Shown here: positions 48,671-54,139 of the stretch, in pieces
How positions within the stretch are numbered: position 1 is the stretch's first letter
Layout of the letters: each line of letters opens with the position of its first letter
Origin: Jannaschia sp. M317
Lineage (GTDB): Bacteria; Pseudomonadota; Alphaproteobacteria; Rhodobacterales; Rhodobacteraceae
Assembly: GCF_025141175.1 (NCBI RefSeq)
Contig: NZ_CP081155.1
Span: 124,001 to 188,000, forward strand
DNA length: 64,000 nt
Reading direction: 5' to 3'
Notes under the pieces: model-generated
Database searches by the model: none
The model's input: the letters and a program-made list of their open reading frames with translations, nothing else
What the model was told of the DNA's origin: nothing
Program-made: the position numbers and the translations under genes

Positions 48671-48760
48671 GGAGACGTGGCCGAGTGGTCGAAGGCGCTC
48701 CCCTGCTAAGGGAGTAGGCGGGAAACCGTCTCGAGGGTTCGAATCCCTTCGTCTCCGCCA
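48671..48760 (+). tRNA. tRNA-Ser (GCU)
   Basis: Complete type II tRNA with encoded CCA: acceptor ggagacg / cgtctcc, anticodon stem ctccc/gggag around loop ctgctaa (anticodon GCT), a long variable arm, and T-arm gagggttcgaatccctt. A tyrosine integrase starts 143 bp downstream in the same direction, so the 3' half is probably an attachment site. I found no second copy of its 3' end downstream in the window. Confidence 0.95.
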
Positions 48761-48903
48761 GATTTTTCACCCCACCAGTGACGTTCTAGCCTTATAAACA
48801 AGGGCTTTTGCGTCGTTTTCGCTCTAAGCCATCCGTCAAAACTGCTTGATTTGCTGCACAATCGTCTGCACACTCTGTGATACCACGGCGGAAGGCAGAC
48901 CGA

Positions 48904-50172
48904 ATGACCATCACCAAGCGCGGCAGCAGCTATTACCTTCGCAAGCGGGTGCCCCGGCGCTATCAGTCGGTGGAGTCGCGCGGCGTGGTCTGGATCAGCC
49001 TGCACACCGATTCTGAGACTGTGGCAAAGGTGAAGGCCCCGGCGGCGTGGTCCCATCTGATCGAAGGTTGGGAAGCCCGTCTTGCCGGTGACACGTCCGA
49101 CGCCGAACGCCGGTTCGATGCCGCCCGCGAATTGGCGGCTGTGCGGGGCTTTCGATACCTGCCCTTCGATAAGGTGGCAGACCTGCCGATTGCCGAATTG
49201 CGGGCGCGGCTGGACGCGGCCAAGGGGCGCGACGGTGAGCCTGACACGCGCGAAGCGGCGGCTGTGCTGGGGGGCACGGCGGAACCTGCCATCACAGTCA
49301 CGCGGGCGCTGGACCTGTTCTGGACGCTGGCCAAGGACAAGTCGCTGGGGAAGTCTGCCGATCAGTTGCGGCGTTGGGAAACCCCCCGCAAGAAAGCCGT
49401 GGCCAACTTCGTCGCGGTCGTCGGGGACAAGCCGCTCGCAGAGATTTCCGGCGACGACATGCTTGATTTCCGGCAATGGTGGACGGAACGGCTGGAGTCC
49501 GAAGGGCTGACACCGAATAGCGCCAACAAGGATTTGATCCACCTTGGCGACGTGATGAAGACCGTTAACAAGATGAAACGGCTGGGGCTTGTCCTTCCCC
49601 TGTCCGACCTGTCGTTCAAAGAGGGTGAGGCCAAACAGCGCCCGCCGTTCAGCACAGCTTGGATCACGGAACGGCTTCTGGCCCCTGGCGCACTGGACGG
49701 CTTGAACACGGAAGCGCGTTGTGTGGTGCTGGGGATGGTCAACACCGGATACCGGCCCAGCGAAGGGGCGAACCTGTTGCCCGCCCATATCCGGCTTGCA
49801 GACAGGGTGCCGCATATCTCGATTGAACCGGCGGGACGGCAATTGAAGTCGGCCTATGCGCGCCGGATCATCCCGCTTGCCGGGGTCAGCCTTGAAGCCT
49901 TCAAAGAATGTCCGAAAGGGTTCCCCCGCTATCGGGACAACGCCAGCCTGTCGGCCACTGTGAACAAGTTCCTGCGGGAACGCGGGTTGATGGAGTCGCC
50001 CGATCACGTCCTTTACAGCCTGCGGCACAGTTTTGAGGACCGGATGCTGAATGCCGGAATTGATGACCGGATCAGGCGCGACCTGTTCGGGCACCGCCTC
50101 ACACGCGAGCGCTACGGCAAGGGGGCATCGCTGGACCATCTTGCAGAGTGCATTCAACGGGTTGCGCTTTGA
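48904..50172 (+). CDS. tyrosine-type site-specific integrase (DUF6538 N-terminus)
   Basis: 422 residues. An arm-binding DUF6538-like N-terminus (YYLRKRVPRRYQ) is followed by a core-binding domain (about 125-225) and the catalytic domain. Arg284 in NTGYRPSEG, Arg374 in YSLRHSF, His396 in FGHRL and the nucleophile Tyr404 in RERYG are present; the usual first His of HxxR is Tyr, as in several integrases of this group. Placement next to tRNA-Ser shows the integration target. ATG 48904. It overlaps a convergent small ORF by 19 bp. Confidence 0.9.
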   Translation: MTITKRGSSYYLRKRVPRRYQSVESRGVVWISLHTDSETVAKVKAPAAWSHLIEGWEARLAGDTSDAERRFDAARELAAVRGFRYLPFDKVADLPIAELRARLDAAKGRDGEPDTREAAAVLGGTAEPAITVTRALDLFWTLAKDKSLGKSADQLRRWETPRKKAVANFVAVVGDKPLAEISGDDMLDFRQWWTERLESEGLTPNSANKDLIHLGDVMKTVNKMKRLGLVLPLSDLSFKEGEAKQRPPFSTAWITERLLAPGALDGLNTEARCVVLGMVNTGYRPSEGANLLPAHIRLADRVPHISIEPAGRQLKSAYARRIIPLAGVSLEAFKECPKGFPRYRDNASLSATVNKFLRERGLMESPDHVLYSLRHSFEDRMLNAGIDDRIRRDLFGHRLTRERYGKGASLDHLAECIQRVAL

Positions 50173-50375
50173 GCGGCCACAGCCCGCGCACGGGCCAGCG
50201 CGCCGCCTGACATGGCGGCTTCTGCGTCTGCCACGTCCCTTTCCAGCCGTTCGAAGATCGGCACGTAAACGGGATCGGCCAAGACCAGCTTGGCAGCGAA
50301 GGCAAGATCGCTTCGGAGTTGTTCAAGGTCGCAGCCGTTGGCCGCGATTGGATCGTGTGACATCTGATTGACCAA
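50154..50375 (-). CDS. small phage-island hypothetical protein
   Basis: Up to 73 residues (MVNQMSHDPIAANGCDLEQL at the start; ATG 50363 is an alternative start). Predicted mainly helical with LVLADPVYVPIFERLERDVA; I do not assign a family. It overlaps the integrase 3' end by 19 bp in convergent orientation and lies before the DUF2190 gene on the same strand, so it is likely cargo or remnant of the integrated element. No clear ribosome site is seen. Confidence 0.5.
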   Translation of the reverse strand: MVNQMSHDPIAANGCDLEQLRSDLAFAAKLVLADPVYVPIFERLERDVADAEAAMSGGALARARAVAAQSATR

Positions 50376-50432
50376 ACAATTGCGGTGCTGTCAGGCTGAC
50401 GCTTGGTCGTTCCACAGATGATCGGGTGCCGA

Positions 50433-50762
50433 TCAGAAGGTGCCGTTGAGCCGAACCGGGACACTGGCGCTCGGGTTCGCGGCGGCTGTGACGGCCACCC
50501 CGATCTTGGTGTTGCCACTGGCGGTGGATGTGACCACCTTGGCGGTGTCATCCCAATAGACCACAGCCCCTTCGGCAAAGTTGTTCGCGGCCACCTTGGG
50601 CATGTCGAAGACACCGACCGTTACCAGATCGGCAGTTTCGCCACTGGCAGCGTCACCAGCGGCCACGCCGAAGATCAGGCCCGTCTTGCACCCACCGCCA
50701 CTGGTGACGGCGTAGGGGGCTGTGAGGGTCAGGTTTTCCCCCTTCTGCACATAGTTCTTCAT
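50433..50762 (-). CDS. DUF2190 phage capsid-cement-type protein
   Basis: 109 residues (MKNYVQKGENLTLTAPYAVT) of the DUF2190 family, small beta-rich proteins found in phage head modules and thought to stabilise capsids. The Gly/Ala/Val-rich repeats (GVFDMPKVAANNFAEGAVVY) fit. ATG at 50762 follows aaagga. Its expected neighbours (protease, major capsid) are missing; the IS lies just upstream, so this is a prophage remnant. Confidence 0.8.
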   Translation of the reverse strand: MKNYVQKGENLTLTAPYAVTSGGGCKTGLIFGVAAGDAASGETADLVTVGVFDMPKVAANNFAEGAVVYWDDTAKVVTSTASGNTKIGVAVTAAANPSASVPVRLNGTF

Positions 50763-50787
50763 TTCAGAGTCCTTTCGAGGTTTTGAA

Positions 50788-50803
50788 GGCTCTGTTGCAC
50801 AAA
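50788..50803. repeat. IS left terminal inverted repeat
   Basis: ggctctgttgcacaaa, exact reverse complement of the right end at 52006-52021. Confidence 0.95.
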
Positions 50804-50937
50804 CCCGGTGAGGGATTCATCTTGTGTATCCAGCGTGGTAGCTGGAGGTCATGAACAGACCCACACCCCCCGCCTACAGGATCAGGAACTGGTCGTCTTA
50901 CAATGAAGCGCTCAAGCGTCGTGGATCGCTGACGATC

Positions 50938-50978
50938 CACTGACCGGCAGGGTATTGCGCAGCAATGTCCCGAGAGGT
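50938..50978 (-). repeat. 41-nt hairpin element, copy A (reverse orientation)
   Basis: Inserted between codons for Ile (atc, 50935-50937) and Trp (tgg, 50979-50981) of the transposase. Read on the minus strand it begins acctctcggga, ends ctgccggtcagtg and aligns gap-free with copies B and C. Its stem occupies 50950-50971 (GGG/CCC, bulged A, ATTGC/GCAAT, loop TGC), with one mismatch next to the bulge. It introduces an in-frame TGA. Confidence 0.85.
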
Positions 50979-51080
50979 TGGTTCGATCCCACCATGACCT
51001 GGGAAGCCGCACCGACCGGCAAACGGGGCCGACAGCCCGGCTATAGCGATGCCGCGATCCAGACTTGCCTTTCGATGAAG

Positions 51081-51141
51081 GGTGAAGGGCGTCCCGGAAT
51101 TGATCCAGTGGATCAATTCAGCCCTAAACGGGCGGAGCCCC
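51081..51141 (+). repeat. about 61-nt palindromic element of a second type
   Basis: Lies between codon Lys (aag, 51078-51080) and ctg-ttc-ggc (51145). Contains a perfect 10-bp hairpin gaattgatcc / ggatcaattc (51097-51106 and 51110-51119, loop agt) and a second small hairpin gccc / gggc (51121-51124 and 51130-51133). It does not align with the 41-nt elements. Exact ends are uncertain by one or two bases because G runs flank both sides. Confidence 0.8.
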
Positions 51142-51312
51142 GGGCTGTTCGGCATGGCGCTCAGGCAGACGACAGGGTTTGTCGAGAGCCTTCTGCGCCT
51201 GACCAGTCTGGGTTGGTCGGTGCCAAACTTCAGCACCCTGAGCCGAAGGCAAAAGACCCTTAAGGTCAACATTCCCTATCGTGGATCAGACGGCCCGCTG
51301 CACCTCTTGATC

Positions 51313-51353
51313 CCCTCTCGTGACATCACTGCGTGATGCACTGCCGGGCAGCG
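51313..51353 (+). repeat. 41-nt hairpin element, copy B
   Basis: Inserted between atc (51310-51312) and gac (51354-51356) of the transposase. Begins ccctctcgtga and ends ctgccgggcagcg. Stem at 51320-51341: GTG/CAC, bulged A, CATCAC/GTGATG, loop TGC. Removing it exactly restores the family sequence LHLLIDSTGIKV. Confidence 0.85.
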
Positions 51354-51575
51354 GACAGCACCGGGATCAAGGTCGAGGGCGAAGGGGAATGGAACGCCCG
51401 CAAGCACGGTGGCACCAAGCGCCGCGTCTAGCGCAAGGTCCACATAGGAATTGACGAACAATCGCTGGAAATCCGGGCTGCCGAGTTCACCACCAGCGAC
51501 GTAGGCGACGCGCCCATGCTGCCCGAACTGCTGGACCAGATCCCACCCGATCAAGAGATCGCCAGCGTCACAGCC

Positions 51576-51616
51576 CCCTCTCGGGATCATGCTTTGCATG
51601 ACCCTGCCGGGCAATG
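51576..51616 (+). repeat. 41-nt hairpin element, copy C
   Basis: Inserted between gcc (51573-51575) and gac (51617-51619). Begins ccctctcggga and ends ctgccgggcaatg. Stem at 51583-51604: GGG/CCC, bulged A, TCATGC/GCATGA, loop TTT. Removing it restores the family sequence VTADGAFDTRK. Confidence 0.85.
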
Positions 51617-52005
51617 GACGGGGCCTTCGACACCCGAAAGTACCACGACGCCATTGCCGCACGTGGGGCTGCGGCCATCATTCCGCCCCGCAAGAACGCA
51701 AAACTATGGAAGCCCGACAGTCTCGGCGCCGTCGCGCGGAACGATGCCCTCCGCGCATCAAAACGCTTCGGCCGGACGATCTGGCGCAGATGGAGCGGGT
51801 ATCACCGCCGAAGCCGCGTCGAGACAAAGATGCATTGTGTCAAACTTCTGGGCCAAAGCCTGGCCGCCCGGGACTTCGACCGTCAGGTTGCCGAGGTCCA
51901 AATCCGAGTGGCAGTGCTGAACGGCTTCACCGCGCTCGGAACGCCGATCACTGAAGTCGTGGGATGAGTCCGTCCGGGCAAAGGGGAGCCTCGGCCATCA
52001 AGCGA

Positions 52006-52021
52006 TTTGTGCAACAGAGCC
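52006..52021. repeat. IS right terminal inverted repeat
   Basis: tttgtgcaacagagcc, exact reverse complement of the left end at 50788-50803. Confidence 0.95.
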
Positions 52022-52198
52022 CGCTAGGGTGATCGCATCGGCGGTCTCGATCTGGATTTCAGCTGCACGACAGCAGAACCAATCGGCCAGGAGACTGGCT
52101 GCCAATGAAAACGGTCCTGATCCCCCGAACGCCCGATCCTGATGCGTCGTCACACACCAACTGGCCTCGAGTTCGGTGATCTCTGCGTCCTGCGTCAA
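52022..52198 (-). pseudogene. 5' fragment of an unknown gene truncated at the IS boundary
   Basis: An open frame begins at a TTG (52196-52198; MTQDAEITELEASWCVTTHQ if read as start) and runs into the IS right end, where it stops after six foreign codons. The 59-codon part outside the IS (ending AAEIQIETADAITLAG) looks protein-like but I recognise no family. It is probably the beginning of an island gene whose remainder was lost with the deletion that accompanied or followed IS insertion. It could also be non-coding. Confidence 0.35.
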
Positions 52199-52415
52199 CG
52201 ACGCCTGCCAAATCCCAGCGCACGGAGTCCGCAGCCAGTGATTTTAGCCCGCACGGGGAACATCAATGCTGTTTCACTTCCTTTGAAAAGGCTGGCCAAT
52301 TTCACAGACAACAAGGACGGATTCGCAAAGCAAATCCGTCCTGATCGCCAATACATGTTTTTCGATGCCCGTAGTGGGACTCGGTTCACGTTTCGTCTTG
52401 GTGCAGGGTTCGTCC
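52199..52415. other. 217-bp intergenic segment, includes a likely terminator
   Basis: No supported ORF. ggacggatt (52315-52323) pairs with aatccgtcc (52333-52341) around a 9-nt loop; on the minus strand it is followed by ttgttgt and lies about 75 nt past the DJ-1-like stop, so it is the best candidate for the 3' end of the nemR-ohr-yqhD operon. The segment is somewhat AT-richer than its surroundings. Confidence 0.45.
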
Positions 52416-53093
52416 CTATTTCAGCAAAGCAAGGATTTCCTGCGCCGCCGCGGCCGATGAGGCGGGATTCTGGCCGGTCACCAGATTGCCGTCGCGCAAG
52501 ACGAAGCTGCTCCAATCCGCTCCCTTTTCGTAGGTGCCACCATTTGCCTTCAGCATGTCCTCGACTAAGAAAGGCACAATGTCGGTGAGGGCCACGGCCT
52601 CTTCTTCGGTGTTGGTAAATCCTGTTACCCGACGGCCGGAAACCAGCGGCTTGTTATCCGGCCCCTGTGTGTGGCGGAACACGGCGGGGGCGTGACAGAC
52701 GGCACCAACGGGCCTGTTGGCGGCGTTGAAAGCCTCTATCAGGCGCTTGCTGTCCGTATCTTCGGCCAGATCCCACAAGGGGCCATGGCCGCCCGGATAG
52801 AAGATCGCGTCAAACCCGTCTTCGGTGACATCCGAGAGTGTCAGAGTGTTCGCCAGATGCGCCTGCGCGTCGGCATCGTCCTTGAAGCGGCGGGTATCGT
52901 CGGTCTGCGCGTCCGAGCTGTCGCTGGAGGGATCAATCGGCGGCTGCCCCCCTTTGGGCGAGGCCAATGTGATCTCGGTGCCCGCGTCCTTGAAGACGTA
53001 GTAGGGTGCCGCGAATTCTTCCAGCCAGAAGCCAGTTTTCTTACCAGTGTCCCCGAGCGTGTCGTGGGATGTCAGTACCATCAGGATTTTCAT
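52416..53093 (-). CDS. DJ-1/PfpI superfamily protein, Hsp31/glyoxalase III-like
   Basis: 225 residues. MKILMVLTSHDTLGDTGKKT at the N-terminus, GFWLEEFAAPYYVF (conserved Glu), FYPGGHGPLWDLAED and the nucleophile AVCHAPAVF are those of the type 1 glutamine amidotransferase-like proteins related to Hsp31 and fungal glyoxalase III, which remove methylglyoxal without cofactors. Last gene of the minus-strand electrophile operon; ATG 53093 with aaaggc upstream. The family match is strong, the exact activity inferred from context. Confidence 0.85.
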   Translation of the reverse strand: MKILMVLTSHDTLGDTGKKTGFWLEEFAAPYYVFKDAGTEITLASPKGGQPPIDPSSDSSDAQTDDTRRFKDDADAQAHLANTLTLSDVTEDGFDAIFYPGGHGPLWDLAEDTDSKRLIEAFNAANRPVGAVCHAPAVFRHTQGPDNKPLVSGRRVTGFTNTEEEAVALTDIVPFLVEDMLKANGGTYEKGADWSSFVLRDGNLVTGQNPASSAAAAQEILALLK

Positions 53094-53104
53094 GGTCTTG
53101 CCTT

Positions 53105-54139
53105 TCAGTTGCGGCCAACGCGAATGACGCGCTTGCCAAAGTTTTCGCCGTTCAGCAGTCCGATGAAGGCTTCGGGCGCGTTTTCCAGCCCATCGATGAT
53201 CTCTTCGCGGTACTTGATTTGTCCGCCTTCGATCCACGCCGTCATGTCCTTGGCGAAGTCCGGGTAGAGATGGCCGAAGTCGTCAAAAATGATGAACCCC
53301 TGCATCTTGATCTTGTTCCGAAGGATCTGACCCATGAGCCAGTTCATCCGGTCTGGCCCATCGGGCAGGCTGGTGGCGTTGTATTGCGAAACAATGCCGC
53401 AAACCGGCACGCGCGCGTTCGGGTTCAAGAGCGGAAGGACGCCATCAAGTACCTTGCCGCCGACATTTTCAAAGTAGACGTCGATGCCTTCGGGGCTGGC
53501 CGCGGCAAGCTGTTCGGCGAAGTCATCCGACTTGTGGTCAATACAGGCATCAAAGCCCAACTCGTTGACTGCATAGGCGCATTTATCCGGTCCGCCCGCT
53601 ATGCCGACCACGCGGCAGCCCAGGATCTTGCCGATCTGCCCCACGGTTGCCCCGACCGGCCCGGTTGCAGCCGCCACGGCAATTGTCTCGCCCGGCTTGG
53701 GCGCGCCGATCTGTGTGAGACCGGCCCAGGCTGTGAAGCCGGGCATGCCCATGATCCCCAGCGCCCAGGACGGATGCGCAGGCGACTTGCCCAGGTTGGT
53801 GACGCCCGACCCATCGCTGAGCGCATAATCCTGCCAGCCATTGAAGCTGAGCACAAAATCGCCCGGTGCGAACCCGTCGACGTTCGAGGTCACGACCTGC
53901 GCGACTGTTCCGCCCACCATGACCCCGTCAATTTCCACCGGAGCAGCGTAGGATTTAGCATCACTCATGCGCCCGCGCATGTAGGGATCCAGCGACAGGA
54001 ATTCCGTGCGCAAAAGCATCTCGCCCGGACCTGCAGAGGGCACCTGCCCTTCGACCAGGCGGAGTGTGTCCTTGGTTGGTGCGCCCTTGGGACGCTCTGC
54101 CAGCACAAGCTGGCGGTTCACTGTTTCGGTCTGCGTCAT
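53105..54139 (-). CDS. zinc-independent MDR oxidoreductase (CurA / leukotriene B4 dehydrogenase type)
   Basis: 344 residues. NRQLVLAERPKGAPTKDTLR at the N-terminus, LSLDPYMRGRMSD, the NADPH loop AAATGPVGATVGQIGKILGC and VYFENVGGKVLDGVLPLL are hallmarks of the MDR2 subfamily, which reduces alpha,beta-unsaturated carbonyls with NADPH. A GTG at 54145 is in frame, but ATG 54139 has agga at 10 bases. Placed after yqhD in the electrophile operon, consistent with detoxifying enals and enones. Confidence 0.9.
   Translation of the reverse strand: MTQTETVNRQLVLAERPKGAPTKDTLRLVEGQVPSAGPGEMLLRTEFLSLDPYMRGRMSDAKSYAAPVEIDGVMVGGTVAQVVTSNVDGFAPGDFVLSFNGWQDYALSDGSGVTNLGKSPAHPSWALGIMGMPGFTAWAGLTQIGAPKPGETIAVAAATGPVGATVGQIGKILGCRVVGIAGGPDKCAYAVNELGFDACIDHKSDDFAEQLAAASPEGIDVYFENVGGKVLDGVLPLLNPNARVPVCGIVSQYNATSLPDGPDRMNWLMGQILRNKIKMQGFIIFDDFGHLYPDFAKDMTAWIEGGQIKYREEIIDGLENAPEAFIGLLNGENFGKRVIRVGRN

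Follow-up and report, generated by a model that had tools for sequence, protein, structure and literature searches.

A family of hairpin elements of some 34-45 nt from marine alphaproteobacteria, three copies of which interrupt a single transposase gene of Jannaschia sp. M317, is best read as a set of non-autonomous mobile hairpins that move as a folded single strand, are joined to their targets in trans and parasitise insertion sequences (IS), an interpretation to which we assign a probability of roughly 0.55. The three copies lie in a window of 64,000 nucleotides (contig NZ_CP081155.1, positions 124,001 to 188,000), where a first-pass annotation had picked them out as 41-nt inserts with conserved ends and covarying stems. 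The features of the host IS are, in window coordinates:

50788..52022, (+) strand: host insertion sequence, IS5 family, ISSpo9-like, with terminal inverted repeats GGCTCTGTTGCACAAA / TTTGTGCAACAGAGCC, by alignment to ISSpo9 and relatives
50851..51967, (+) strand: host-IS transposase gene, interrupted by three 41-nt inserts and one of 61 nt, with an in-frame TAG at 51429-51431
50938..50978, (-) strand: hairpin element copy 1, 41 nt, inverted relative to the transposase gene, between ACGATC and TGGTTC; covariance model 64.3 bits
51081..51141, (+) strand: 61-nt insert, a different hairpin-bearing repeat in the same transposase gene, by alignment
51313..51353, (+) strand: hairpin element copy 2, 41 nt, sense; covariance model 62.3 bits
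51576..51616, (+) strand: hairpin element copy 3, 41 nt, sense; covariance model 65.1 bits

The pattern CCTCTCG-N20-CTGCCGG had exactly three exact matches in the window, compared to none in 100 shuffles, and the three inserts aligned to each other without gaps, which bears out their places and orientations. Alignment to intact relatives, namely plasmid IS copies of Roseicitreum, Pseudosulfitobacter and Ruegeria (ISSpo9) that are continuous at all three places, gave the exact junctions ACGATC|TGGTTC (for the inverted copy), TTGATC|GACAGC and GCC|GACGG, and confirmed that each insert is exactly 41 nt long. Copy 2 is thereby placed immediately 5' of the first Asp codon (LLI|DST) and copy 3 immediately 5' of the second (VTA|DGAF); these two residues and the Glu of the ISSpo9-type transposase are what we take to be its catalytic residues. 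The bulged A, the pairing scheme and the GAC, GAC and GAT that follow the inserts were likewise as first described. Because the gene also carries the 61-nt insert of another type and the TAG stop, the transposase in the window is very probably dead. A search of Rfam with window positions 49000-53500 gave no match up to an E-value of 1. The site of the 61-nt insert is also occupied in Roseivivax marinus (L439); this repeat type has a GAATTGATCC..GGATCAATTC hairpin, and similar sequence was seen at three further loci (L068, L070 and L183). A tRNA-Ser gene at 48671-48760 is followed by a 431-aa ORF at 48877-50172, whose apparently integrase-like character suggests the edge of a genomic island adjoining the IS.

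The annotation had proposed a covariance-model search, and a model built from 70 distinct copies indeed found copies beyond the window, in the own genome as well as in the class. Five copies were found by the model in the 3.94 Mb of the own genome, and the same five by exact pattern; a scan of this genome with three mismatches allowed was uninformative, the control pattern being commoner than the matches. The two copies outside the window are identical inserts in a 1,092-bp sequence found unchanged at two places in the chromosome (L004/L005), with IS ends on both sides and a transposase frame that is open over 313 codons once the insert is left out. As the same 1,092 bp, IS and insert together, occur at two different places, this IS has, judging from its sequence, multiplied while carrying the hairpin, either by residual activity of its own or in trans.

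Across the order, 128 of 390 genomes matched the family pattern (fixed at 16 bases, with one purine and a variable middle), while the reversed control pattern gave ten scattered matches among the matches listed, and four genomes carry 43-56 copies each. At the level of the class, 10 of the 289 genomes drawn matched the model, seven of these outside the family of the window, with assembly contamination a possible source. A GTDB-wide scan returned at least 120 stretches, mostly from Rhodobacterales among the 80 matches listed, and 100 of these 120 hold a copy passing the palindrome filter; from the viral collection, 10 of 27 stretches passed, at least two of them doubtful. In total, 346 palindromic copies with distinct surroundings and 243 different cores were collected, after 23 of 369 pattern matches had failed the filter and been left out. 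The unit can be written 5'-N CCTCTCG (variable stem, often with one bulged A) CTGCCGG KCARYG-3', in which the fixed ends are partly imposed by the gathering of copies through exact CCTCTCG and CTGCCGG; point-mutated ends exist. Over distinct cores, the unit lengths were 41 (100), 43 (41), 37 (33), 39 (18), 40 (16) and 45 nt (12), with others fewer, and some junctions fit 40 rather than 41 nt (at the second site in the alignment of Leisingera NJS204, and at L146). A multiple of three was found in 36 of 243 distinct cores, which shows no selection for frame.

The stem covariation described for the window copies holds over 70 ungapped distinct 41-mers, taken from 94 listed ones: 95.5% of the pair cells were standard pairs, 9 of 12 pairs had changed on both sides, and 123 double-changed pair cells were observed, compared to 31.5 in shuffles and no more than 43 with the partner slid. 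The palindrome filter favours pairing, yet not double changes at given columns. Over the 243 distinct cores, the mismatches on the strand first read comprised 67 C·A, 26 G·T and 35 others (binomial p 2.5e-5 for the excess of C·A over G·T, without correction for shared ancestry). Since C·A mismatches become G·T wobbles on the complement, selection probably acts on the fold of the complement, assuming that mutation is equal on both strands. The original proposal that a folded strand or an RNA is mobilised could thus be narrowed to this complementary strand, whose consensus is 5'-CAYTGC CCGGCAG stem CGAGAGG-3'; in its fold one T is extrahelical, and GGCA/GAGA form an internal loop. The bulged T (a bulged A on the other strand) is present in 90% of the 94 rows and missing from many shorter cores.

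Insertion was precise, usually without loss of target, at sites resembling C|GAYG, which is the junction found at unique sites. Read on the folded strand, RTC is the trinucleotide immediately 5' of the unit in 149 of the 282 unique sites considered (those with the standard tail among 306 near-unique sites), compared to a background of 3.6%, and the target tetranucleotides include CATC (71 sites), CGTC (25) and TGTC (23). It had been remarked of the window copies that the first base of the insert equals the preceding target base; this applies at 204 of the 282 sites, chiefly since both bases are usually C, and breaks down as a general rule, with agreement at 12 of the 75 sites with a target base other than C. 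Position 1 of the unit pairs with position 36, which is T in 9 of the 12 copies with A at position 1, compared to 10 of 309 others, and the rare A/T version follows a target A in 9 of 9 unique sites. That position 36 pairs with the base at the opposite junction is suggestive of a guide-like reading of the target.

Transposase genes are the main recognised hosts. The host scan used one flanking frame each, unedited, for 150 of 304 sites, chosen by a rule of length and composition that sometimes takes the wrong frame. The 25 commonest of the 44 Pfam families matched were all transposase or recombinase domains, or helix-turn-helix domains that such enzymes carry, except for one solute-binding protein family. 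Among the best 25 of 58 NCBIfam families, the matches were to IS3 (34), IS481 (29), IS5_2 (19), IS66 (5), IS110 (3), IS256 (2) and IS200 (1), and to an outer-membrane efflux family (1). At least 64 of the 150 sites lie in transposases, if the IS3, IS5_2, IS66, IS110, IS256 and IS200 matches do not overlap, and the true share is probably higher, as wrong frames give no match.

The 346 copies fell into 246 site clusters, 59 of which hold two or more copies, and in 52 of these 59 the copies at one site have different stems. In the ISSpo9-type transposase, where 53 copies could be mapped (33 sense and 20 antisense, in all three codon phases), 16 are located directly before the first Asp codon, three before the second and five just past the Glu; recurrent sites elsewhere include DATYLK and RIEIMF in another IS5 group and MDETTAP in IS66. 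With a short target motif trained on 241 other sites, the share of the weight that fell to the first-Asp junction was 0.4% in the orientation observed and 3.5% in the opposite one, yet 16 of the 53 copies are found there, and the motif does not account for this hot spot. On a tree of 29 IS copies, 10 of them occupied, occupancy of the first-Asp site required 10 changes, at least seven of which are forced by well supported branches, and the changes were no fewer than in shuffles. Of 35 distinct IS rows, 13 occupied and 22 empty, this tree includes 29 (10 and 19, respectively); five rows were omitted for identity below 50%, and L469 was excluded by name. Among the five, L146 has an element near the first-Asp site, yet was scored empty by the script. 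Three long branches and one possibly false join were flagged, and the long branches leave details of the tree unsure. Gains and precise losses are indistinguishable on this tree, and either of them amounts to mobility.

Empty alleles were found at nucleotide resolution. An IS5 on a plasmid of Phaeobacter inhibens, 98.3% identical to the copy in Leisingera M658, lacks the insert and reads exactly ATGATC|GACGC; in the same alignment, Leisingera NJS204 is empty at that site and carries a different, inverted copy, counted as 40 nt, at a second site. No near-identical plasmid allele was found in a search made for one further locus (L047). No flanking target duplication was seen at three sets of occupied and empty pairs, and for a fourth pair the gap placement of the aligner was ambiguous. 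The proposal that these are mobile elements has therefore held up, related intact IS copies lacking the segments and the segments being widespread elsewhere with occupied and empty site pairs. Leisingera M658 also harbours a triple-occupied IS in seven copies of 99-100% identity; since the frame of the one copy tested is not intact even without the inserts, this IS has presumably been moved in trans.

For the mobilising enzyme, 20 element-rich genomes (at least 5 copies) and 20 element-free genomes (no match to the strict pattern) were picked by us from the 390. Y1_Tnp (PF01797), present in 45 of the 390 genomes, was found in 8 of 20 element-rich and 0 of 20 element-free genomes; it was absent from the own genome (G000), from G154 and from the element-rich G162 and G285 (Leisingera M658), and two Y1 neighbourhoods with an element (L467 and L469) resemble ordinary hosts. 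Y2_Tnp of the IS91 type was enriched, in 13 of 20 compared to 1 of 20 genomes, and was missing from seven of the 20 element-rich genomes, the own genome among them. As IS66, an unrelated IS family serving as a control for general IS load, was itself found in 15 of 20 element-rich and 7 of 20 element-free genomes, the enrichment of Y2 is confounded by IS load, and Y2 is the best lead to a mobiliser at this point. The idea that the mobilising factor is encoded elsewhere fits the data: no larger autonomous element with the same ends was recognised in 1.67 Mb of fetched loci through paired stem halves, nor in 1.87 Mb through orphan halves of the commonest stem classes, the orphan halves being point-mutated or cut-off copies together with a few chance matches.

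A flank shared repeatedly between G162 and one MAG of the Rhodobacteraceae (L070, L183, L186, L198 and L269) was considered as an autonomous end and set aside, as it looks like another host IS end. In L186, L198 and L269, a shared segment of about 110 nt, apparently structured, lies 3' of the element between the hairpin and a second GCCGGGCAGTGG. The left ends of IS91-type elements (L472-L487, from G075, G162 and G202) contain CTGCCGCGGCAATGG and small hairpins whose loops are TCTC or TGCC; these resemble the conserved blocks of the 41-nt units, with no shared target or boundary seen, and are regarded as a lead. In L477, two IS91 copies are arranged in direct tandem.

Under the preferred reading, the unit would be excised as a folded single strand, the complement of the strand first read, and joined 3' of an RTC-type target such as CATC, CGTC or TGTC. 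The joining enzyme would act in trans and would most likely be of the HUH type, either an IS200/IS605 Y1, an IS91 Y2 or an unrecognised relative, while position 36, by pairing with the base at the opposite junction, could provide a guide-like choice of target. Occupied IS copies would then spread the hairpin as a passenger.

An RNA-borne route, in which a reverse transcriptase supplied in trans copies the transcribed hairpin into nicked target DNA in a SINE-like manner, would also be served by a covarying fold with an internal loop and wobble tolerance mainly on one strand, and by exact insertion without two-sided target duplication. We consider it unlikely, as RVT_1 does not track the elements (8 of 20 element-rich compared to 5 of 20 element-free genomes) and no RVT_1 gene was found in G000, G162, G285 or G181. 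Integron attC sites have paired feet, an unpaired central spacer, a stem with an extrahelical base, a variable tip and a folded bottom strand, and their core boxes are GTTRRRY and RYYYAAC. The family has a similar anatomy, and a tyrosine recombinase might recognise the folded bottom strands of its units as attC-type hairpins and insert them at secondary sites; this seems improbable, however, since the 70-row consensus contains neither box and the target is C|GAYG rather than G|TT.

The clustering at catalytic codons could also be taken to mean that the hairpin is removed or skipped at the level of the RNA or the ribosome, leaving the host transposase active and making insertion at conserved codons tolerable, and it is true that some hosts have no other frame lesion (as in the 313-codon frame of L004/L005) and that occupied IS copies do multiply. 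Such intron-like behaviour is very improbable considering that the inserts occur in both orientations and all codon phases, that the favoured fold is on the complementary strand and not on the mRNA for sense insertions, that the lengths are not selected for frame, and that the multiplied triple-occupied IS, in the one copy tested, is broken even without its inserts. The RNA splicing or bypass that the annotation had raised is accordingly not supported. Most improbable of all is that these are old insertions which were inherited with IS lineages, drifted in their stems through compensatory changes and no longer move. Stem classes are indeed partly tied to sites, but identical 41-mers sit in IS copies whose flanks diverge close to the insert, so simple inheritance fails as an explanation; moreover, IS copies with an occupied and with an empty first-Asp site are intermingled on the tree, and a 98%-identical empty allele exists, which leaves repeated precise loss as the main escape.

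Among known systems, Rickettsia palindromic elements are likewise palindromic inserts inside genes; they stay in frame, whereas the lengths of the present family are mostly frame-breaking and its recognised hosts are IS genes. Introns and inteins habitually insert at conserved catalytic codons of homologous genes, as these hairpins repeatedly do, but 34-45 nt are too short for an endonuclease and self-removal is not supported. IS608 has an extrahelical base and inserts without target duplication, two properties shared by the family. In contrast to IS200/IS605 elements and their MITEs, the family has one hairpin between exact junctions, with no left and right pair and no transposase gene between the ends, and in contrast to classical DDE MITEs it lacks terminal inverted repeats and a two-sided target duplication. 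For IS200/IS605, the passages cited here describe hairpin ends that are recognised by the enzyme and a flanking tetranucleotide that sets cleavage (PMC6006769).

In the parts of the REP literature drawn on, GTAG REPs are described as small single hairpins of 21-65 nt, some of them bulged, that occur in many copies and are thought to be moved in trans (PMC6006769, PMC3733652). The 41-nt family is likewise a single small multicopy hairpin. It differs in that neither GTAG nor GTGG occurs in the adjacent target tetranucleotide at any of the 282 unique sites, the consensus 5' of the hairpin foot being CAYTG, in that its recognised hosts are transposase genes and not intergenic space, and, compared to GTAG REPs with their RAYT/TnpA-REP, in that several element-rich genomes lack a Y1 gene. 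CGTC REPs, in the sections of the source used, are mainly alphaproteobacterial, with a CGTC/TGTC tag beside the hairpin, stems of 8-9 bp starting with AT, mostly a CCA tail and no known transposase (PMC3733652). The folded strand of the family is preceded by CATC, CGTC or TGTC, but these 71 CATC, 25 CGTC and 23 TGTC among 282 sites lie in the target and not in the element. On the other strand, the unit begins with CCTC, which also counts as a form of the CGTC REP tag. As far as those sections describe CGTC REPs, the family differs in having no 8-9-bp stem starting with AT, no CCA tail and an internal loop. By its sequence features, the family would therefore work like a single-strand hairpin of the REP or IS200/IS605 type, and appears to fall outside the definitions of both GTAG and CGTC REPs. 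No description of it was found among the papers listed by searches of the open-access literature, most subscription journals and all preprints being outside the scope of this search.

Hairpins of 34-45 nt would rank among the smallest known mobile elements. Their exact ends, empty alleles, target motif and repeated insertion at one codon make the movement of transposase-less REP-like repeats testable, and they add a third layer of parasitism, with minimal DNA hairpins inside insertion sequences inside bacteria. Insertion at active sites also suggests a natural route of transposase silencing. It is conceivable, if rather speculative, that IS hyperparasites home as folded single strands to active-site codons, that the YRTC target explains the 'tag' of CGTC REPs, and that one unrecognised class of ssDNA-joining enzymes moves both in alphaproteobacteria.

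Finally, a few individual inserts in related transposase genes deserve mention. A 39-nt copy at the first-Asp site of an IS5 on plasmid 2 of Loktanella salsilacus (L437, 162-1133) preserves the frame of a gene annotated as a full-length IS5 transposase. In Leisingera NJS201 (L098), an insert of 45 nt whose hairpin is of another type, AAAAGGATC..GATCCTTTT, ends in TG|GATG before GATGAACTGC, at a site near the catalytic Glu that is also used by the 41-nt family. A further hairpin type, GGCAAACAGTCC..GGACTGTTTGC, is seen in a 42-nt insert in the same IS5 gene of Paracoccus sp. MC1862 (L436).
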